In this document: one piece after another, positions 3,662 through 11,676 of the stretch
How positions within the stretch are numbered: the stretch's first letter is position 1
How the letters are laid out: every line of letters begins with the position of its first letter
Virus record (IMG/VR): IMGVR_UViG_3300010391_000277
Location: 1 to 20,427 of that record
Strand: one strand, 5' to 3'
DNA length: 20,427 nt
From: a virus
The notes under the pieces: model-generated
The model's database searches: none
The model's input: the letters and a program-made list of their open reading frames with translations, nothing else
Told to the model about the DNA's origin: nothing
Position numbers and translations under genes: made by a program

Positions 3662-3708
3662 AAGTTATTATGGGTTTTTCAAACAAAATTCCCATAATAA
3701 CTTTTTTT
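3662..3708 (+). terminator. Rho-independent terminator
   Basis: AAGTTATTATGGG (3662-3674) pairs perfectly with CCCATAATAACTT (3691-3703) across a 16-base loop and is followed directly by a T7 run. It ends the block running from the recombinase to the hypothetical gene and sits 17 bases before the helicase start. Confidence 0.9.
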
Positions 3709-3724
3709 ACATGCATATTTTAAA

Positions 3725-5728
3725 ATGAGTGAAATAACTGAAAATACTTTATCAGCATATCTCGGTCCTGAATTTCAACAACGCCTTATGTGGCAATTAC
3801 TTGTAGAACCTGAATTTGCTGAAAAAACGATACCTAATTTAGCTGTTGAATATTTTGATGACCCGAATCTCAAAAGACTTTTCATTATAATTCTTGAATA
3901 TTTCAAAGAATATGAAAAAGTTCCAAATCTTCAAAATCAAAGTATACAACAAGCAATCAATAAATACAAGACACCCAATAATATAATTGAAGAAGAATCA
4001 CTCTTTGCAGTAATCAAACGCATTGAAATGTGGAATGAAAGAGTGATTAATAAACAAATGTTACATGATGGTGATGTTGTACAAAAAACAACCAGTGGTT
4101 TTATTAAACAACAAGAATATCGAAAACTTGGTGAACACATTTTAGAAAAGACAAAAAATGGTGAAATTCGAAATAAACATACTTTAGGTGCAATCGAAGA
4201 AAAAATTCAAAAAATCAGTCATATTGGTGATGAAGAAGATTATGGTACTGAAGTTATTGAGAATATTGATAAGGTATTGAGAAAAGAATTCCGTGAAACC
4301 ATAGCAACTGGTGTTGATGTTATTGATGGATTAACTGGCGGTGGTTTAGGTAAAGGTGAAATTGGAGTTATTTTGAGTCCTTCGGGTGCTGGCAAAACTA
4401 CTTTGCTTACAAAGATTGCCAATACTGCATACGAGATAGAAAAGAATGTATTGCAAGTCATATTTGAGGATACTACCGAACAAATACAGAGAAAGCATTA
4501 TACAATATGGTCAAAAACATCGTTGAGCAAAATTGATGATGAAGATGAAAACATTAGAGTTAAAAAAATTGTTCATGAAAAAGCAGAAGAATTAAAAAAA
4601 TCAAGAGGTAAACTTATAATCAAGAAATTTAGTCAGGAAAATACGACAATGATGGATGTCCGTAACTGGATGATTCGTCATCAGAAAAAATGGGGTTATA
4701 AATTTGATATTCTTGTTCTCGATTATCTTGATTGTCTCGAATCACATAAGAAAACCGCAGATAGAAATGAAGCAGAACTGGTAATTGTCAAATCATTTGA
4801 AGCATTGGCAACTGATTTCGATATTCCCGGATGGACAGCTATTCAGTCCAATAGAAGTGGTTTTGATGCAGAATTTGTAGAAGCACATCAAACTGGTGGG
4901 AGTATAAAAAGAGTTCAGAAAGCGCATTTTTTTATGAGTGTAGCAAAAACTAAAGACCAAAAAGAAGCACAATTAGCTAATATTAGAATTATTAAAGCAA
5001 GATTTGCACAAGATGGTCAGACATTTCAAGATTGTATATTTAATAATGATACAATGGAAATCAGAATTGAAGATGATAGATATAAGTATAATAGAATAAA
5101 TAAGAATACAAAACATTATGATAGTGAAGATGTTGATAAAATTGATGATAATGCAAATAAAATTCATATTGCTATTAGTCAACATACTGAAGCAGAATTA
5201 ACTGAAAAAGTTAATGATGATAATATAAATGAAATTACAGTAAAAGATGTAACTGAAATGACATCAACTGAAATTAATGACCTATTGAAGAAAAATGCCG
5301 AACAACTGGTAGATAATAATCCAGAAATAACTAAGCAACATATTGATAATATCACAACTGAAATTAATAATAATATTGCCAATACTGTAAAAGAAAAAGA
5401 ATCGTTTGAATGGGATGGTGAATCTGGAAATACAACCACCGAAATAATTAATGAACAACCTGAAGTTAAATTTGATAATGTCGAACCATTAATTGAAATT
5501 GAACCGGAAGAAGTTAAAACTTCAATTATCGTTAAAAATATTGTAATGGAATACAATGTTGTCAATAAAAATGGTAGAATGTATCCATCACCAAACCCAG
5601 AAATAAAACCAATCACTGAGATTGAAAGGAGATTTATTGACCCAGATGCGCCACATGGTGAAAATAAATTAATACAAGAAACTCTGGCTAAATTACGTAA
5701 GAATCAGAATGTTATAAAAAAAGAATAA
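3725..5728 (+). CDS. DnaB/gp41-like replicative helicase with long C-terminal extension
   Basis: A 667-residue protein. Residues 1-170 form a helical N-terminal region. The RecA-like motor has Walker A SPSGAGKTT (218-226), an acidic strand QVIFEDTTEQ (about 244-253), Walker B ILVLDYLD (329-336, D333) and a QSNRSG motif (374-379) like the DnaB motif-H4 region. This fits the hexameric 5'-3' replicative helicase family (DnaB/T4 gp41), which unwinds the fork ahead of the polymerase and recruits primase. Family members are usually 430-480 residues. Here about 210 more follow the core: an Asn/Asp/Glu/Thr-rich low-complexity stretch (about 455-610) and a final ordered-looking segment with NKNGRMYP and a basic end. 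Whether primase activity is encoded elsewhere cannot be told from the window. The gene has its own transcription gap behind a terminator. Confidence 0.88.
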   Translation: MSEITENTLSAYLGPEFQQRLMWQLLVEPEFAEKTIPNLAVEYFDDPNLKRLFIIILEYFKEYEKVPNLQNQSIQQAINKYKTPNNIIEEESLFAVIKRIEMWNERVINKQMLHDGDVVQKTTSGFIKQQEYRKLGEHILEKTKNGEIRNKHTLGAIEEKIQKISHIGDEEDYGTEVIENIDKVLRKEFRETIATGVDVIDGLTGGGLGKGEIGVILSPSGAGKTTLLTKIANTAYEIEKNVLQVIFEDTTEQIQRKHYTIWSKTSLSKIDDEDENIRVKKIVHEKAEELKKSRGKLIIKKFSQENTTMMDVRNWMIRHQKKWGYKFDILVLDYLDCLESHKKTADRNEAELVIVKSFEALATDFDIPGWTAIQSNRSGFDAEFVEAHQTGGSIKRVQKAHFFMSVAKTKDQKEAQLANIRIIKARFAQDGQTFQDCIFNNDTMEIRIEDDRYKYNRINKNTKHYDSEDVDKIDDNANKIHIAISQHTEAELTEKVNDDNINEITVKDVTEMTSTEINDLLKKNAEQLVDNNPEITKQHIDNITTEINNNIANTVKEKESFEWDGESGNTTTEIINEQPEVKFDNVEPLIEIEPEEVKTSIIVKNIVMEYNVVNKNGRMYPSPNPEIKPITEIERRFIDPDAPHGENKLIQETLAKLRKNQNVIKKE

Positions 5729-5821: not shown

Positions 5822-5852
5822 TTGCACAATTAAAAAATGTGTTGTATGTTTG
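5822..5852 (+). promoter_or_regulatory. Bacteroidetes-type promoter of the RNA region
   Basis: TTG (5822-5824), a 20-base spacer, then TATGTTTG (5845-5852) match the TTTG-N19/20-TAnnTTTG consensus of Bacteroidetes primary-sigma promoters. The run TTTTTTGAAAAATACTTGCA just upstream resembles host stable-RNA promoters. Transcription should start near 5858-5862 and run through the tRNA-like cluster. This is the best promoter in the window. Confidence 0.65.
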
Positions 5853-5872: not shown

Positions 5873-5884
5873 CGTTCTTTAATG
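5873..5884 (+). promoter_or_regulatory. boxA-like antitermination element in the RNA leader
   Basis: CGTTCTTTAATG matches the rrn boxA core (YGYTCTTTAA) and lies ~15-20 bases after the predicted transcription start. Ribosomal RNA leaders use boxA to bind NusB/NusE and prevent premature termination in untranslated transcripts. Its presence fits a long untranslated RNA operon. A short match in AT-rich DNA could be chance. Confidence 0.4.
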
Positions 5885-5896
5885 TATTGAAAAAAT

Positions 5897-6022
5897 AAAA
5901 AGGAAACGGTTTGTTATTTCAGTAACAATTAGCTCAGTGTAGAGCTTCCGCATTTATAGCAGAAAGTCGTGGGGTCGCACCCACATTGTGTAAACAACAA
6001 TAACAAACAAACTGTCCTTTTT
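5897..6022 (+). ncRNA. tRNA-like RNA clamped by a long outer stem (element A)
   Basis: The core at 5923-5991 has tRNA form: a weak acceptor stem (five inner pairs), TA, a D arm (GCTC 5932-5935 with GAGC 5942-5945), an anticodon-type arm (5947-5963, one C-A mismatch, loop ATTTATA, anticodon position UUA), a five-base variable loop and a T-type arm (GTGGG with CCCAC). The T loop has only six bases and lacks the usual TTCRA, base 37 is U, and the D loop lacks GG. Around it an outer stem forms: AAAAAGGA (5897-5904) with TCCTTTTT (6015-6022) and GTTTGTTATT (5909-5918) with AATAACAAAC (5999-6008), with a small internal loop between. Taken literally UUA would read the ochre stop codon, which several genes here use. 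The degenerate features plus the stem look more like a tRNA mimic such as a Y RNA. Confidence 0.5.
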
Positions 6023-6061: not shown

Positions 6062-6140
<79 letters not shown>

Positions 6141-6235
6141 CAAGTAAATTGAAATTATGAAAGTAATTAGTATGGTTCTGGAAACAGAGTAAGATAGAAT
6201 GAAACAAGTCCACACCATCTCAATTTCGGGCATAA

Positions 6236-6312
6236 AGAAGAACTGATAGTTTTTACAGTAAAATTGACGGTAAATCAAACACTTACAAATCAAAAACTAA
6301 CGAATTTCTTCT
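6236..6312 (+). ncRNA. Long hairpin RNA (element E), Y-RNA-like shape
   Basis: AGAAGAA (6236-6242) pairs with TTCTTCT (6306-6312) and TAGTTTTT (6247-6254) with AAAAACTA (6292-6299), separated by an asymmetric internal loop (CTGA opposite ACGAAT). A 37-base apical loop carries CAGTAA and ACGGTAAATCAAA. The 5' strand and loop align closely with 6392-6430 in element C. The stem, internal loop, stem and large apical loop order is the general shape of Y RNAs, though the canonical Ro60-binding sequence is not seen. The preceding 6143-6235 holds a small hairpin (TTCTG, GAAA loop, CAGAG, 6175-6188) and nothing else I can identify. Confidence 0.4.
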
Positions 6313-6340
6313 GAACTTATTGATGTTCTTTTAAATAAAT

Positions 6341-6477
6341 GGGGAGATAGCAAATTAAAAACAAAAATACTATCTCAATACTCTCTTAAATGAGAGAACT
6401 AATGGTGTTTTCAGTAATACGGTAAAGCAAATTGTGTTGAAAACAATTAATTATGAGTTCGATTCTCATTCTCCCCA
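6341..6477 (+). ncRNA. tRNA-like structure with a ~65-base D-loop insertion (element C)
   Basis: The ends form a perfect acceptor stem, GGGGAGA (6341-6347) with TCTCCCC (6470-6476), discriminator A. A perfect T arm (ATGAG, loop TTCGATT, CTCAT, 6453-6469) adjoins it. T8-A9 and the start of a D arm (TAGCAAA) follow the 5' strand. The D-arm 3' part (ACGGTAAAGC) appears only at 6419-6428. Then comes an arm ATTGT-GTTGAAA-ACAAT (6431-6447) whose middle triplet would be TGA (Ser), although a class II variable arm is missing. About 65 bases (6354-6418) therefore interrupt the D loop, including hairpin CTCTC/GAGAG and motif GGTGTTTTCAGTAA. Competing pairings exist: GAGATAG with CTATCTC (6344-6376), TGTTTTCA with TGAAAACA (6406-6445), and AATGAGA with TCTCATT. 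It may be a disrupted tRNA or a tRNA mimic. Confidence 0.5.
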
Positions 6478-6484
6478 CAAATAT

Positions 6485-6522
6485 ACGCAGTAAAGCCTCT
6501 TACGAAAGTAATGTAACTGCGT
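6485..6522 (+). ncRNA. Structured RNA hairpin with GNRA tetraloop
   Basis: ACGCAGT (6485-6491) pairs with ACTGCGT (6516-6522). Inside, TTAC-GAAA-GTAA (6500-6511) forms a second hairpin capped by a GAAA tetraloop. The 5' strand contains another CAGTAA. It lies between elements C and D and may be the 5' domain of D. Confidence 0.45.
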
Positions 6523-6545
6523 GACTGTATGAAGGGAAAACGAAA

Positions 6546-6650
6546 GGTGTTTACAGTAAATTCGTTGGTTCGAATCCAACATCCCGCCATTGGCGAGATT
6601 GGCTGAGTGGTTTAAAGCGCAAATATGCTAAATTTGAAAACAATTACACC
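6546..6650 (+). ncRNA. Circularly permuted tRNA-Ser(GCT)-like RNA (element D)
   Basis: A 5' half of tRNA-Ser lies at 6593-6636: acceptor GCGAGAT, TG, a class II D arm (GCTGAGTGGTTTAAAGC) and a perfect anticodon arm CAAAT-ATGCTAA-ATTTG with anticodon GCT. No matching 3' half follows. Just upstream is a lone 3' half: T arm GTTGG-TTCGAAT-CCAAC (6564-6580) and ATCCCGCC (6581-6588). The two acceptor strands pair with each other, ATCCCGCC with GGCGAGAT (6592-6599), seven of eight pairs with one A-C mismatch, closed by the triloop ATT. So the halves are in 3'-then-5' order. The outer ends also pair: GGTGT (6546-6550) with ACACC (6646-6650), or TGTTTACA with TGAAAACA (6635-6642). This could be a permuted tRNA gene or a Y-RNA-like tRNA mimic. 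Confidence 0.5.
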
Positions 6651-6679
6651 AAATACTTTTAAAATATTCCCTGAGTTTC

Positions 6680-6865: not shown

Positions 6866-6873
6866 TATATTTG
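6866..6873 (+). promoter_or_regulatory. Possible -7 box before the Ro60-like gene
   Basis: TATATTTG fits the Bacteroidetes TAnnTTTG element and would give a leader of about 15-20 bases before the ATG at 6897. No -33 TTG is present at the right distance. Its place just after the terminator supports a separate promoter. Confidence 0.4.
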
Positions 6874-6896: not shown

Positions 6897-8525
6897 ATGG
6901 AAAATTTGGTATTAACACAAAAAATGCTTGTAGATGTTAGACAATCATTAATTGATGGTTTAACTGTTGCGAGTGGTGCTAAGAGCAGTGCAACTTATTA
7001 CCACAGCAAAGATGAACAAATGAAAGCTATTCAGGGTCAGATTAAGAACTTGTATAAACTTTCAAAGGAACTTCCATTAATTATAGCAAGTCAAAAGGGT
7101 GTTACTGGTAGATTTATATCAGAGGTATTGCTTAATGAATTTAAGCAAACTTTAAGGGGTGGAGCATGTAATATCGTTAATCCAATTGATTGGTATGATA
7201 ATGGATTGTCAGATAAGGCAGTTCTTACCGCATTAAATAACCTTGGTGAAAATGGTTTACCATATGTATTACGTCTTTTCGTTGATTTAAAAGATGCAAG
7301 GGTGAACAACGAAAGGTCGAGGAAAATCGCACTTGGCTTTATTTGGGGTCAGGATAATCTTGAATTCTATGCAATGAAGTACAGGAACAAGATTGCTGAA
7401 ATCCTAAAGCACGTATATGGCGTGAAAAAAACCAGTATATTACTTTCAATTGCACAGAAGAATGTTGTGACCAATGGTTTGTATGAAAGTGATAAGGAAT
7501 TGTTAATTGCTAATGACAATATTTTAAAATATTTTAATGGCAGTGACATGAAAGCATTCAAGTTATTACTTTTCTTATTCAAAAAAGATGTTGGCGTTGA
7601 ATATGGCGAAACTGAATTTCCTCTTTTGAGAGAATATCAAAGAGCAAAGGTTAATATTAATGGTGTTAAGACTGTGCCAGAAGAAGTATTGCTTGGTTTG
7701 ATTTCGTCAGTAAAACATCCACAATATCATTCAATGTGGGCAACTGATGCTCAAAGATTAGTTACAAAGGCTTTATTCAGAAAGAATGTGCAAGTGACTT
7801 CGGTTAACCAGCAGGTTCGTCAGACAAAATCAACTGCAAAGCTTGGTGTTGAAAAAACTGTTGATTTGGAAAAGGCAACGGATTTCCTTGCTCTTTACAA
7901 GACTGGTTATGAAAATGGCTGGACTGATGAATTGAATCTTGCGATTGTGAAACTCGCAACAAAGAAGAAAATTCAAGGATTCTTTTATCAGAATATTGGT
8001 ATAATTGTCGATGACAGTATCTCAATGACCGGAAACAAATTGGAATCCAAGAATACTCCAAGGGCAATTGCCGATTTTACTACATTGGTTCTCATGAACT
8101 CAGTAAAATCTTCGGTGGTTTTAAAGACCAGTGGATTTTCAACTGATATTGCCAGTTCGTTCATTGACCTTTTGAAGAATGAAAATCCTTCAAACCCATA
8201 TAATGCAATTTTTATTTTAACCGATGGTTATGAAAATTCGTATGACGGTTTGACTAATGAAGTCATTTCAATGTGGAAAGCAGAAACCCAGAGGAATATT
8301 CCAATGTTTCAGATTTCACCAATCACCAGTGCTGAAATGGGTGCAAACGTAAGAAAATTGGGCGAAGGTGTTGTCACAATGGCAATAAATAATCCAATTG
8401 CATTACAGCCACAAATCAATGCAAGACTTTTGGAAATCGATACCAAAAGATGGTTGGAAAATCAGGTATTGGCTCTTGAGTCAGCACCTATTACAAGGTC
8501 GAAGAAAATTAGTATTAACGCTTAA
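6897..8525 (+). CDS. Ro60-like protein (TROVE-like helical region plus vWA domain)
   Basis: A 542-residue protein, the usual length of Ro60. Residues 1-~350 are predominantly helical, like the HEAT-repeat ring of TROVE proteins. A von Willebrand A domain follows (about 365-515) with a complete MIDAS motif DDSIS (D372, S374, S376) after the hydrophobic strand NIGIIV, and ILTDG (D443) as the later metal site. The order helical ring then vWA is that of Ro60/Rsr, which binds Y RNAs on its surface and misfolded RNA ends in its cavity and can partner an exonuclease. TROVE identity is judged from architecture and length, not from an alignment. The neighbourhood supports it: tRNA-like non-coding RNAs lie directly upstream, as Y RNAs lie near bacterial Ro60 genes. 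A MoxR-partner vWA protein is the main alternative, but no MoxR ATPase is in the window. The next gene starts 11 bases later, so they form an operon. Confidence 0.62.
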   Translation: MENLVLTQKMLVDVRQSLIDGLTVASGAKSSATYYHSKDEQMKAIQGQIKNLYKLSKELPLIIASQKGVTGRFISEVLLNEFKQTLRGGACNIVNPIDWYDNGLSDKAVLTALNNLGENGLPYVLRLFVDLKDARVNNERSRKIALGFIWGQDNLEFYAMKYRNKIAEILKHVYGVKKTSILLSIAQKNVVTNGLYESDKELLIANDNILKYFNGSDMKAFKLLLFLFKKDVGVEYGETEFPLLREYQRAKVNINGVKTVPEEVLLGLISSVKHPQYHSMWATDAQRLVTKALFRKNVQVTSVNQQVRQTKSTAKLGVEKTVDLEKATDFLALYKTGYENGWTDELNLAIVKLATKKKIQGFFYQNIGIIVDDSISMTGNKLESKNTPRAIADFTTLVLMNSVKSSVVLKTSGFSTDIASSFIDLLKNENPSNPYNAIFILTDGYENSYDGLTNEVISMWKAETQRNIPMFQISPITSAEMGANVRKLGEGVVTMAINNPIALQPQINARLLEIDTKRWLENQVLALESAPITRSKKISINA

Positions 8526-8536
8526 TAATTCATATA

Positions 8537-9643
8537 ATGAATACAAGAGAATTTACAGAGTTGCTTAAAGGTTGTCGTCCTGTCAAAGATAGTGATGGTA
8601 ACATTGTAGTGCAAAGTATTTTAAATATGCAAGTTGTATGTCTTACAACTGATGAAGAATATTCATTGGATACTCGTTTTGCAAATCCTTTGACTGCTCT
8701 TCAAGCAGGTAATAACTCATACGGTCAAATTAGTTTTTCCAATAAAACTGATAAGGAAGTTATTGTGCCTACTCAGATGGCAGTTATGACCAAGCAGAGT
8801 GCTCAGAATCACGGTATGACAAAAGCTGGTTACATGGAAAAGTACGCCAATGTAACTTACCATGACGCAGGTTGTGTTCAGGGCGGACAAACTGGTTACT
8901 TTCGTGGTACTCAGGAATTCCGTATGCTTCCAATAACCATGCGTGAAATGGTGTTCGATACTATTGGACAACCAAGTGGATATCAAAGGATTTATCCTGC
9001 TATCAATAAATTAGGTACTGATACTCAGTCTGGTGCAGGTAACTATCTTAATGTTTACTTTGAAAAGTATGACAAGAAACTCGAACAGTTTATTGCACAC
9101 TTTGAACGTCCACGTAATCTTATAGGTATCATCGTATTGGTTGATGGTGAAATTGTTGCAATAGACAAATTCCCTTCATTCACATATGCCGAACAGGTTT
9201 GGGATTTGATGATTCGTGACTGTTATGGTGCATTGGCAATTATCAGTGAATTGAAGCACAAGACTTCAAATGCGATATTTACTGAAACTTTCAATGAAAC
9301 GAAGAAGACTAATCAGGAAAACATCGTTGATTTGCTTGAAAAAGCTTTGAAGAAAACCAAGCAAAGTGTTACTGCAAGTGTTCAAGAAAAGATTCAAGAA
9401 CTTCTTGAATTGACTTTTGAAGCAACTCTTGATACTGAAGGTAATCCTTCAGCTATGAGCAAAGCACCAAAAAGCTACGTTTTAAAAGATAGTGATAATA
9501 ACTATATTGGTCAGGTTATCACTGAAAATGAATATAATCATCTTGTTTCAATTGTAAAACGTGATACATTTAATCCAGATATATTAAGACAAGTAAATGA
9601 ATTAAAACGTAAAGCAAAAAAACAAAATAAATTTATGTTATAG
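8537..9643 (+). CDS. ARPP-1-like protein, partner of the Ro60-like gene
   Basis: A 368-residue protein. A central core resembles the ARPP-1 family: a strand-rich start (about 60-90, ISFSNKTDKEVIVPTQMAV), a segment with AGCVQGGQTGYF (111-122), and LIGIIVLVDGEIVAIDKFPSF (about 195-215) followed by an aromatic helix VWDLMIRDCYGALAI (221-235). ARPP-1 proteins are predicted, not characterised, and occur in conflict and repair operons. The C-terminal third is Lys/Glu-rich helix, perhaps coiled coil (about 250-300), then a basic tail. There is no signal peptide or membrane segment. The 11-base gap to the vWA gene and a shared terminator indicate co-transcription, so it probably acts with the Ro60-like protein. 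The family match is by memory of motifs; treat the function as unknown. Confidence 0.5.
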   Translation: MNTREFTELLKGCRPVKDSDGNIVVQSILNMQVVCLTTDEEYSLDTRFANPLTALQAGNNSYGQISFSNKTDKEVIVPTQMAVMTKQSAQNHGMTKAGYMEKYANVTYHDAGCVQGGQTGYFRGTQEFRMLPITMREMVFDTIGQPSGYQRIYPAINKLGTDTQSGAGNYLNVYFEKYDKKLEQFIAHFERPRNLIGIIVLVDGEIVAIDKFPSFTYAEQVWDLMIRDCYGALAIISELKHKTSNAIFTETFNETKKTNQENIVDLLEKALKKTKQSVTASVQEKIQELLELTFEATLDTEGNPSAMSKAPKSYVLKDSDNNYIGQVITENEYNHLVSIVKRDTFNPDILRQVNELKRKAKKQNKFML

Positions 9644-9802: not shown

Positions 9803-10528
9803 ATGAAGAAATTAACAACAGAAGAATTTATATTAAAAGCAAAAAAAATACATGGGAATAGGTATGATTATTCGAAATGTGTTTATAATGGTTCATTTAG
9901 TGTTGTCGATATTATTTGTGATAAACATGGTGTTTTTCAACAAACACCCAATCGTCATTTAAATAATCGTGGATGTGTTAAATGTGGTAATATTAAGCAA
10001 AGCAATTCACGAAGAAAAACATTAAAACATTTTATAGTTAAATCAAAAACTATTCATGGTGATAAATATGATTATTCAAAAGTTAATTATTTTGATTCAA
10101 GAATAAATGTAACAATTATTTGTCCTGAACATGGAGAGTTTAATCAAAAACCTAATAATCATCTAAAAGGGTTTGGATGTTCACAATGTAATATGAAATC
10201 ATTGGGTGAATTAATGATAATAAATTGGTTGAATCGAAATAATATTAAATATGAAATTCAAAAATCATTTTCAAATTGCAAAAATATTATACATCTCAGA
10301 TATGATTTCTATTTACCCAATCAAAAATTATTGATTGAATATGATGGTGAACCACATTTTAAAGAAATAGAATATTTAGGGGGTAAAGATGGATTAATGT
10401 ACAGACAAATTAATGATAAAATTAAGACCGATTATGCAATGAATAATAATTTTAATTTATTGCGAATTAAATATACTGAAAGAAAAAATCTATCGGAAAT
10501 TTTAAAAAATAATATTATAATTATTTAA
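9803..10528 (+). CDS. Free-standing homing endonuclease (Vsr/EDxHD-like)
   Basis: A 241-residue protein. Two copies of a ~55-residue zinc-ribbon-like DNA-binding unit (about 9-63 and 77-130) share F-I-x-K-[AS]-K-x-IHG-[ND]-[RK]-YDYSK, then IICxxHG, then a GCxxC pair. The C-terminal half is a PD-(D/E)XK-fold nuclease of the very-short-patch-repair type: E136, D168 in YDFYLP, the strand LLIEYDG (177-182, D181), H185, and a later acidic residue (D206 or D210). Such genes are common selfish elements in large phages. They cut a specific site in related genomes and spread by recombination. It sits between the Ro60-like operon and the fibre genes, and the first fibre gene starts 11 bases after its stop, so it has been inserted next to, and perhaps shares a transcript with, virion genes. 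It is more AT-rich than its neighbours. Confidence 0.85.
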   Translation: MKKLTTEEFILKAKKIHGNRYDYSKCVYNGSFSVVDIICDKHGVFQQTPNRHLNNRGCVKCGNIKQSNSRRKTLKHFIVKSKTIHGDKYDYSKVNYFDSRINVTIICPEHGEFNQKPNNHLKGFGCSQCNMKSLGELMIINWLNRNNIKYEIQKSFSNCKNIIHLRYDFYLPNQKLLIEYDGEPHFKEIEYLGGKDGLMYRQINDKIKTDYAMNNNFNLLRIKYTERKNLSEILKNNIIII

Positions 10529-10539
10529 CAATTAAATAT

Positions 10540-11676
10540 ATGGCTTTTTTTGCGAGACCAAATCTGGATGACTTGCAGTTTAAACAACTGAGTGGAAGTA
10601 CATTGACTTTATCAGGTCAAACTCAAATAATAAATCCATCTGGTTTAACAATATCGGATGGTAGTGGTAGTACAATTGTAATTAATGCAAAAGGTGCTTC
10701 AGTTGGTAATGTATTGACTTTTGATGGTAATGAAATTAATTTACAATTACCATCATCTGGCGCAAGCACTGGAATATATACATGTGCATCACCAACTACA
10801 TGTACAGTTGGTGGATTAAGTGCAAGTACTTCAATAACTGGATGTACTATTGCTCGTTTACTTGAAATGATATTAGTTCCGACATTATATCCTACATTAT
10901 CTGCACCATTTAATACTTTTTCAATTTTTCCTGCAACTACACAATATGAAGTGGGTACATCAATTAGTATTACAGGAACTTCAATATTCGATAGAGGATG
11001 TATCTGTCCTGCATATTGTGGTGGTCCACAATATAGAAGTGGTTTACCAATTGCTCATGTAGTTAATTTCTTTGGTAGTGACGTATCAGCATTTACAAGT
11101 AATTTAACTACTGGTGTAACATGTGCATCATATTGTGTTAGTGATAGTGGCAATGCAGTAAGTGGTAGAGTTATATATTCAGGTGGTTCACAACCATTGA
11201 ATAGTTCTGGTAGTAGTTATAGTACACCATTACCTTCAGGTACAACAGCAACAATACCAATAAATATTAGTGGAATTTATCCATATTTTTATGGTACTGT
11301 AGCAAGTAGTGGAGCATCTGCTGGTGGTAATAGACCTGCATCAACACCAGCATTAGTTACTGGTGGAACTAAAGTTGTGGCTCAAAGTACAGGTACTATT
11401 GCTATTATTTTTAATAGTACTTCTGATGATTATTTATTTTTTGCAATACCAACTGGAAGTACAAGTAAAACTAAATGGTTTGTCGATGCATTAAATAATG
11501 GTAATATTGGCGGTGCAGTAACTCCGGGGGGTAATTTATTCCCTACGTTTTGCACTGTTACTGGTGTTACTTCAACAATATGGGGTAATGTTGGTTGTTC
11601 ATCACAAACATATAAAGTTTATGTTAGTAATTATCAAACAGCATCAAGCACATCAATGCAATTAAGAAATACTTAA
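10540..11676 (+). CDS. Fibre-like virion surface protein 1
   Basis: A 378-residue protein rich in Ser, Thr, Gly and Asn. The N-terminus (1-70) starts with the LSGSTLTLSGQTQI segment shared with the 13424 and 19144 proteins and is likely an attachment or beta-helical part. Residues ~80-378 form a domain that also makes up the C-terminus of the 13424 protein. Shared landmarks are L-[FL]-E-x-[IL]-L-VP, then D/N-RGCI-x-P-x-YC, then Y-P-Y-[FY]-YG, then LVTGGTKVVA, then STSKTxWFV, and an ending QTYKVYVS...Q[FL]RN. This looks like a receptor-binding or tip domain. It contains about ten cysteines. No signal peptide is present, as expected for a virion protein. Function is inferred from composition, repeats and position. 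Confidence 0.65.
   Translation: MAFFARPNLDDLQFKQLSGSTLTLSGQTQIINPSGLTISDGSGSTIVINAKGASVGNVLTFDGNEINLQLPSSGASTGIYTCASPTTCTVGGLSASTSITGCTIARLLEMILVPTLYPTLSAPFNTFSIFPATTQYEVGTSISITGTSIFDRGCICPAYCGGPQYRSGLPIAHVVNFFGSDVSAFTSNLTTGVTCASYCVSDSGNAVSGRVIYSGGSQPLNSSGSSYSTPLPSGTTATIPINISGIYPYFYGTVASSGASAGGNRPASTPALVTGGTKVVAQSTGTIAIIFNSTSDDYLFFAIPTGSTSKTKWFVDALNNGNIGGAVTPGGNLFPTFCTVTGVTSTIWGNVGCSSQTYKVYVSNYQTASSTSMQLRNT

Follow-up and report, generated by a model that had tools for sequence, protein, structure and literature searches.

The locus examined here raises a simple question: why would a large bacterial virus carry the two halves of a transfer RNA (tRNA) in permuted order, and what might the resulting RNA do? 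The window, by which we mean the whole 20,427-nt stretch of virus DNA that was analysed (IMG/VR record IMGVR_UViG_3300010391_000277; all coordinates are on the + strand), was initially annotated with the halves of a tRNA-Ser(GCT) in circularly permuted order at 6546-6650, read either as a permuted tRNA gene or as a Y RNA with an end stem in place of the usual tRNA ends. We favour the latter, with a probability of roughly 0.83: the locus would encode a phage Ro60 ribonucleoprotein (RNP), consisting of a ring protein and at least four RNAs with a common stem, and 6546-6650 would be the core of a permuted Y RNA. A gene for a protein with a Ro60 fold lies directly downstream, and the end stem, itself conserved, recurs as a module on other RNAs of the locus.

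A permuted tRNA-shaped RNA closed by a two-helix stem

Read along the + strand, the element consists of a T arm, the 3' strand of the acceptor stem, a 3-nt loop, the acceptor 5' strand, a D arm and an anticodon arm, which is the permuted order first proposed (Table 1). The acceptor strands (6581-6588 and 6592-6599) indeed pair at 7 of 8 positions across a three-base loop (6589-6591), and a search for other partners of either half returned none: the sole tRNA called by ARAGORN in the window is a tRNA-Met (6062-6141), while Rfam reports, above threshold, this tRNA-Met and a tRNA-like element at 5923-5992, together with weak tRNA matches at 6404-6477 and 6593-6650, the latter being a sub-threshold match (21.6 bits) of the 5' acceptor, D and anticodon part. 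No Y RNA family in Rfam matches the window region even at E-values up to 5, in a search for which the Rfam content of a YrlA model was not checked. ARAGORN found no transfer-messenger RNA (tmRNA) in the window, and the permuted RNA has no tag reading frame or mRNA-like domain.

The flanks of the element pair with each other, as had been noted, but not through the GGTGT/ACACC end stem that the annotated boundaries implied; this candidate was replaced by the conserved pairing of GGGAA with TTCCC and of 6544-6552 with 6651-6659. Together, these form a terminal stem of a 5-bp helix (helix I) and a 9-bp helix (helix II) flanking a 5/7-nt internal loop, and by conserved pairing the RNA extends over ~138 nt (6534-6671), longer than 6546-6650. 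No bulge-helix-bulge or other splice motif was found at the flanks, which form the two conserved helices. Folding of the single sequence was by itself unimpressive (z = -1.44); the case for the permuted structure is carried by covariation.

Conservation and covariation across related phages

We fetched 62 related loci from IMG/VR using the downstream gene, which encodes a protein of 542 amino acids (aa). In 60 of these independently fetched loci, the permuted RNA is found upstream of the Ro60-fold gene with its parts in the same order; the two exceptions are L040, for which just 962 nt of upstream sequence is available, and L058. In an alignment of the 41 distinct copies of the permuted RNA (A2), 98.7% of the 1435 base-pair cells are standard pairs, and 23 of the 35 pairs show changes on both sides. 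The covariation score of 0.451 compares with 0.134 in shuffled alignments and 0.05-0.09 when the partners are slid by 1-3 columns. In the closed acceptor stem, as in the anticodon stem, no counted pair is without double changes, and the compensatory changes thus favour the stem 6581-6588/6592-6599 (7 of 7 counted pairs) and no other pairing. The same holds outside any helix for the tertiary 15-48 pair, which is G-C in 34 copies, A-U in 7 and mismatched in none; mapped on a tree of the Ro60 proteins, it changed at least 5 times, and at least 3 of these changes are forced by well supported branches. Because the helices covary and the 15-48 pair is kept, the predicted fold of the permuted RNA is that of an L-shaped tRNA.

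To describe matches beyond the alignment, we refer to a covariance model of the permuted RNA (R1), a stem-only model (R2) and a third RNA model (R3), used on the type b RNA introduced below. R1 assigns 123-153 bits to true copies versus 18-47 bits to tandem arrays of conventional tRNAs; there were extra R1 matches elsewhere in phage genomes, and those inspected were such tandem conventional tRNAs. A deeper search for Ro60 yielded loci that are absent from all models, and all 7 of those examined have stem RNAs upstream; two of them (L134 and L180) have a permuted RNA at 125-129 bits. Independently of the protein, a DNA pattern for the stem retrieved 43 IMG/VR stretches, 36 of which belong to the same Ro60 contigs. 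Among the remaining 7, 6 lie near contig ends, and the seventh (L104, on fragment G001) has ~1.7 kb of sequence beyond the RNA without a Ro60 gene. L117 (G001:77000-84000), also from this fragment, has stem RNAs without Ro60 or ARPP-1 genes; the structural gene found at 10540 in the window has a homologue there, which follows the permuted RNA by ~0.66 kb.

The downstream gene product has a predicted Ro60 fold

The permuted RNA ends 225 bp upstream of the gene at 6897-8525. An AlphaFold2 model of its 542-aa product, built from 20 relatives, has 11 fold matches in the PDB at E <= 1e-3, every one of them a Ro60, Rsr or TROVE protein; the matches span Ro60-RNA complexes, the Rsr of D. radiodurans and the Ro60 of Thermus phage phiLo (9l5y). 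In addition, the residues of the DxSxS metal-site motif of the von Willebrand factor A (vWA) domain, D372, S374 and S376, are invariant in 20 sequences. We take the protein, whose model matches these structures at template modelling (TM) scores of ~0.45, as a Ro60 homologue by fold. It had no match in PHROGs or in a sequence-profile search of solved structures, and two scans of GTDB genomes revealed no relative of the phage Ro60 at the sensitivity used.

Several RNAs share the stem

In the window, four RNAs bear the common stem (types a, b, c and d, type c being the permuted RNA; Table 1). R1 also detects shorter RNAs, encoded at these loci on the strand of the permuted RNA, that have nothing but the stem in common with it, and R2 confirms the sharing, with its best matches in whole phage genomes sitting upstream of the Ro60 gene. 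The stem occupies different places in these RNAs. In type a (28 distinct copies counted), it extends the ends of a normal-order tRNA-like RNA (Rfam tRNA, 30.1 bits; fold z = -4.24), whereas in type b it is inserted, closed, into the D loop. In an alignment of 28 type b RNAs (A3), pairing is 100% in the acceptor, T, D and anticodon stems, and reaches 99% in helix I and 90% in helix II. Even in the most distant of the seven examined loci that are absent from the models (phage LR756500, 462 kb, with a Ro60 ~28% identical to that of the window), the stem surrounds a normal-order tRNA (29 bits, E 6e-5), and two RNAs with the stem inserted in the D loop lie near Ro60 (61-63 bits). Given both this sharing among paralogous RNAs and the linkage to Ro60, we infer that the stem may act as the handle by which Ro60 holds the RNAs.

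Table 1. Features of the RNA cluster and the adjoining genes (+ strand of the window).
Feature	Coordinates	Strand	Evidence
Type a RNA: normal-order tRNA-like (5923-5992), ends extended by common stem, T-run at end	5897-6021	+	R1 36.7 bits, E 1e-4
Conventional tRNA-Met among the stem RNAs	6062-6141	+	ARAGORN; Rfam 44.5 bits
Type d RNA: short, common stem, no recognisable tRNA	6236-6312	+	R2 35.7 bits, E 5.5e-6; R1 38.8 bits
Type b RNA: tRNA-Ser(UGA)-like, closed common stem inserted in D loop (~6357-6420)	6341-6480	+	R3 146.9 bits
Type c RNA: predicted permuted tRNA-shaped Y RNA, whole	6534-6671	+	A2 of 41 orthologues, pair counts, covariance model R1 124.7 bits
Type c, common-stem helix I, 5' strand GGGAA, pairs with 6667-6671	6534-6538	+	99.5% paired; 2 of 5 pairs double-changed
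Type c, common-stem helix II, 5' strand, pairs with 6651-6659; conserved ACAGTAA next	6544-6552	+	97.6% paired
Type c, T arm	6564-6580	+	99.5% paired; double changes in 3 of 5 pairs
Type c, closed acceptor stem: 3' strand 6581-6588, triloop ATT, 5' strand 6592-6599	6581-6599	+	98.3% paired; 7 of 7 counted pairs double-changed
Type c, D arm, stem 6602-6604/6616-6618, GG loop	6600-6619	+	100% paired
Type c, anticodon arm, GCT at 6627-6629	6620-6636	+	5 of 5 stem pairs double-changed
Type c, common-stem 3' strand: helix II 6651-6659, helix I 6667-6671 (TTCCC)	6651-6671	+	Pair counts
Predicted Ro60/Rsr-fold protein, 542 aa: helical repeats 1-356, vWA fold 366-497, DxSxS 372-376	6897-8525	+	AlphaFold2 pLDDT 71
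ARPP-1 domain protein, gene after Ro60	8537-9643	+	Pfam PF20208, 5e-12

Origin of the permutation

The finding of relatives with the conventional order had been considered grounds for rejecting the permutation. Such a relative exists, and it reveals a true circular permutation: the 373.8-kb contig L154, whose Ro60 is 49% identical to that of the window, encodes the same tRNA in conventional order at 3691-3829 (Rfam tRNA, 47.8 bits), with the common stem closed within the variable arm. When this RNA is aligned with the permuted RNAs, the best score is 140 after rotation at the stem tip versus 88 as it stands, and among all 142 possible cut points the stem tip is the best. The availability of an un-permuted version therefore speaks against an artefact. 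A similar conventional-order RNA is found in L046 (4033-4176).

When LR756500 is used to root the Ro60 tree, phages carrying the permuted RNA group into one clade (97/88) with L154 as its sister, a placement to be read with the caveat that both L154 and LR756500 sit on long branches. Since the permuted genes form one clade, one circular permutation suffices; the simplest history that explains these sequences would be a single event by which the gene ends moved from the acceptor to the stem tip.

Decoding, decoy or Y RNA

We weighed the Y RNA reading against four alternatives. One is that the element is a working permuted tRNA-Ser(GCT), whose transcript is circularised or spliced at the flanks, loses its acceptor loop and decodes AGC/AGU. 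In favour of this, the window copy has a complete tRNA fold, a 7-nt anticodon loop with T and A at positions 33 and 37 and a Ser-like D arm, and NCCA is kept in 27 of 41 relatives (see below). The anticodon loop has 7 nt in every orthologue, but the triplet is not conserved: among the 41 orthologues it takes 15 forms, of which TTA and TCA would decode stop codons, and U33 is present in 27 and absent in 14. Over 20 disjoint pairs of orthologues, positions 33-36 diverge by 31%, about as much as the unpaired linkers (27%), and drift at the linker rate argues against decoding. Moreover, the flanks form the two-helix stem common to other RNAs instead of a bulge-helix-bulge, and the window copy has no CCA. 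The permuted RNA is thus very probably not a decoding tRNA-Ser(GCT), as which it was first annotated, and we hold this alternative to be highly improbable. The linker-like drift also bears on the idea that tRNA-shaped Y RNAs serve as decoys, absorbing host anticodon nucleases or other tRNA-attacking defences with their varied loops as bait. In favour of a decoy, complete anticodon arms are kept in types a, b and c even though the triplets vary, and Salmonella YrlA has been suggested to act as a nuclease inhibitor (PMC7790460). We also considered a hypervariable anticodon as evidence, as a comparison of all pairs gave an excess over four-fold sites of Ro60 (0.475 vs 0.247 for the closest pairs); this candidate was dropped since disjoint pairs show no excess over linkers (10 vs 8 of 18, p = 0.41). 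Triplet divergence no higher than that of linkers removes the apparent sign of an arms race, and a type a RNA in L048 (4318-4409) has no anticodon arm, with its stem and T arm retained, so that we consider a decoy unlikely.

The acceptor end raises a further alternative. Acceptor loops in relatives are 5-23 nt long, usually with NCCA after the 3' strand; in 27 of the 41 copies, the 7-bp acceptor strand is followed immediately by NCCA, precisely where a tRNA has its 3' end, and in 26 of these a purine precedes CCA. A purine before CCA is the motif contacted by bacterial RNase P. RNase P and 3' processing might cut the acceptor loop to give a two-piece RNA resembling permuted two-piece tmRNA: the stem would hold its strands together, one of which would end in a genuine CCA, and such an RNA could be charged with an amino acid or bind EF-Tu without leaving its tether on Ro60. 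Set against this, 7 of the 41 copies, including that of the window, have a CCA-less triloop that looks uncut, and in several long loops the hairpin is lengthened by AAT/ATT, ATT/AAT or AAA/TTT pairs, which suggests a closed end. Copies with NCCA may be cut by tRNA-processing enzymes; we regard a two-piece RNA as quite unlikely. Tandem tRNAs can also give permuted-looking matches, so that the element might be a remnant of a decayed tRNA array with its halves in this order by chance; the same order and covarying structure in 60 of the 62 loci, and the gap in R1 scores between true copies and arrays, already refute this on comparative grounds, leaving it a negligible chance. Because the anticodons drift and the loop that carries CCA may be reduced to a triloop, we prefer the Y RNA reading.

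Some observations sit uneasily with a Ro60-bound Y RNA. L058 has no permuted RNA despite 3.9 kb of upstream sequence, and, conversely, the 140.8-kb fragment G001 has permuted and D-loop RNAs with no Ro60 in its sequenced part. The NCCA retained in 27 of the 41 copies would not be needed by a pure mimic. As for the protein, the Pfam TROVE profile does not match it at E-values up to 10, whereas a Deinobacterium control genome was matched, and both the TM-scores of the fold matches and the predicted local distance difference test (pLDDT) value of the model (71) are modest.

A proposed mechanism

Under the Y RNA reading, the two-helix end stem (helix I, internal loop, helix II and ACAGTAA) would be a putative Ro60-binding handle, and the remainder a complete L-shaped tRNA, with T, acceptor, D and anticodon arms and its acceptor end closed by a loop. 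The ancestor may have been a conventional-order tRNA with the stem grafted into its variable arm, the gene ends of which then shifted once, leaving the acceptor for the stem tip. If bacterial YrlA is taken as a guide, the stem would tether the RNA to the Ro60 ring, and the tRNA-shaped domain could gate the ring or recruit an enzyme that recognises tRNAs, such as PNPase or one that modifies or repairs them. A broader proposal, to which we give somewhat less than an even chance, is that a transplantable Ro60-binding stem has moved among tRNA ends, D loop and variable arm, with one of the RNAs becoming permuted, and that full-length tRNA mimics load the phage Ro60 as an RNA quality-control or anti-defence machine with interchangeable tRNA-shaped adaptors.

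Neighbouring genes and elements

In LR756500, an ARPP-1 gene likewise follows Ro60, and its product is 33% identical to the window's ARPP-1 protein. In the window, a gene for an HNH/homing-type endonuclease (9803-10528, PHROG 559) lies between the ARPP-1 gene and the structural genes.

Within the RNA cluster, positions 6344-6350 of the type b RNA (GAGATAG, the acceptor 5' strand and the start of the D stem) are complementary to CTATCTC at 6370-6376 in the D-loop insert. This pairing is found in most of the 28 relatives and covaries in L016 and in both L060 copies, a possible alternative fold. Relatives of the tRNA-Met lack ~6 bases (AAAAAC, 6113-6118) that the window copy has in its T stem, on the 5' strand; gene decay, a sequencing error or an unusual insertion may account for them. 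A hairpin (6485-6522, ACGCAGT...GAAA...ACTGCGT) separates the type b from the type c RNA, and similar hairpins occur in L005 and L024 (AAGCCTCTTAC-GAAA-GTAA). Just upstream of several stem RNAs is a GTTCTTTAA-like motif (5874-5882 and 6325-6333 in the window; also in L007, L011 and L019) that resembles the boxA antitermination element of rRNA operons. Finally, TAnnTTTG occurs upstream of the RNA cluster (5845-5852) and upstream of the Ro60 gene (6866-6873); it resembles the -7 element of Bacteroidota promoters, a hint of a Bacteroidota host.

Relation to known systems

The closest parallel is YrlA, which in Salmonella, Deinococcus and others is encoded near Ro60 and combines a long stem of its 5' and 3' ends with a tRNA-like domain of D, T and acceptor arms; the end stem binds Rsr, and the tRNA-like domain binds PNPase and is modified by tRNA enzymes (PMC8394870). 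Like YrlA, the phage RNA adjoins a Ro60-fold gene and has an end stem and covarying tRNA acceptor, D and T arms. If the ends lie on the anticodon or variable-arm side, 5'-3' polarity leaves T - acceptor - D as the only possible order, and this is the order of the phage RNA. Unlike YrlA, the phage RNA keeps a complete anticodon arm, the stem sequence is a conserved motif of its own, the phage stem recurs inside the D loop or the variable arm and on the ends of normal-order tRNAs, and a conventional-order homologue survives in L154.

The permuted tRNA genes of red and green algae and of archaea similarly have the 3' half upstream of the 5' half with a short acceptor linker; the phage RNA differs in having a conserved terminal stem and a Ro60-fold neighbour, and in having neither a bulge-helix-bulge nor a conserved anticodon. 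With permuted two-piece tmRNA it shares a loop-closed acceptor stem that may carry CCA, but not the tag frame or mRNA-like domain, nor is a tmRNA called by ARAGORN. The protein resembles Ro60/Rsr (TROVE) proteins, including that of phage phiLo (9l5y), in its helical repeats plus vWA fold, DxSxS motif and best fold matches; it differs in falling outside Pfam TROVE and PHROGs, as a separate phage lineage.

Y RNAs with tRNA-like domains, phage ones among them, are already known, reportedly from Chen and colleagues (2014); they occur near Ro60 in over 250 bacteria and phages. What appears to be new is the full anticodon arm, the relocation of a stem among tRNA positions and a traceable permutation: in the available literature, we found no report of a complete anticodon arm in a Y RNA, of one Ro60 stem at several tRNA positions, or of a conventional-order sister that documents the permutation. 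A few jumbo phages are on record as encoding TROVE proteins (PMC7824862).

Natural circular permutations of RNA genes for which an un-permuted sister is at hand are rare, and the step described here can be placed on a tree. It suggests a general route, in which a stem is grafted into a tRNA loop and the gene ends then move to the stem tip. With several RNAs carrying one stem, the rule by which Ro60 would bind them is directly testable, and the Ro60 - ARPP-1 gene pair, together with the stem RNAs, offers a compact module for studying the role of Ro60 in phages. The locus also suggests a reason for the resemblance of Y RNAs to permuted tRNAs, in that their ancestors may have been tRNAs with a Ro60 stem.
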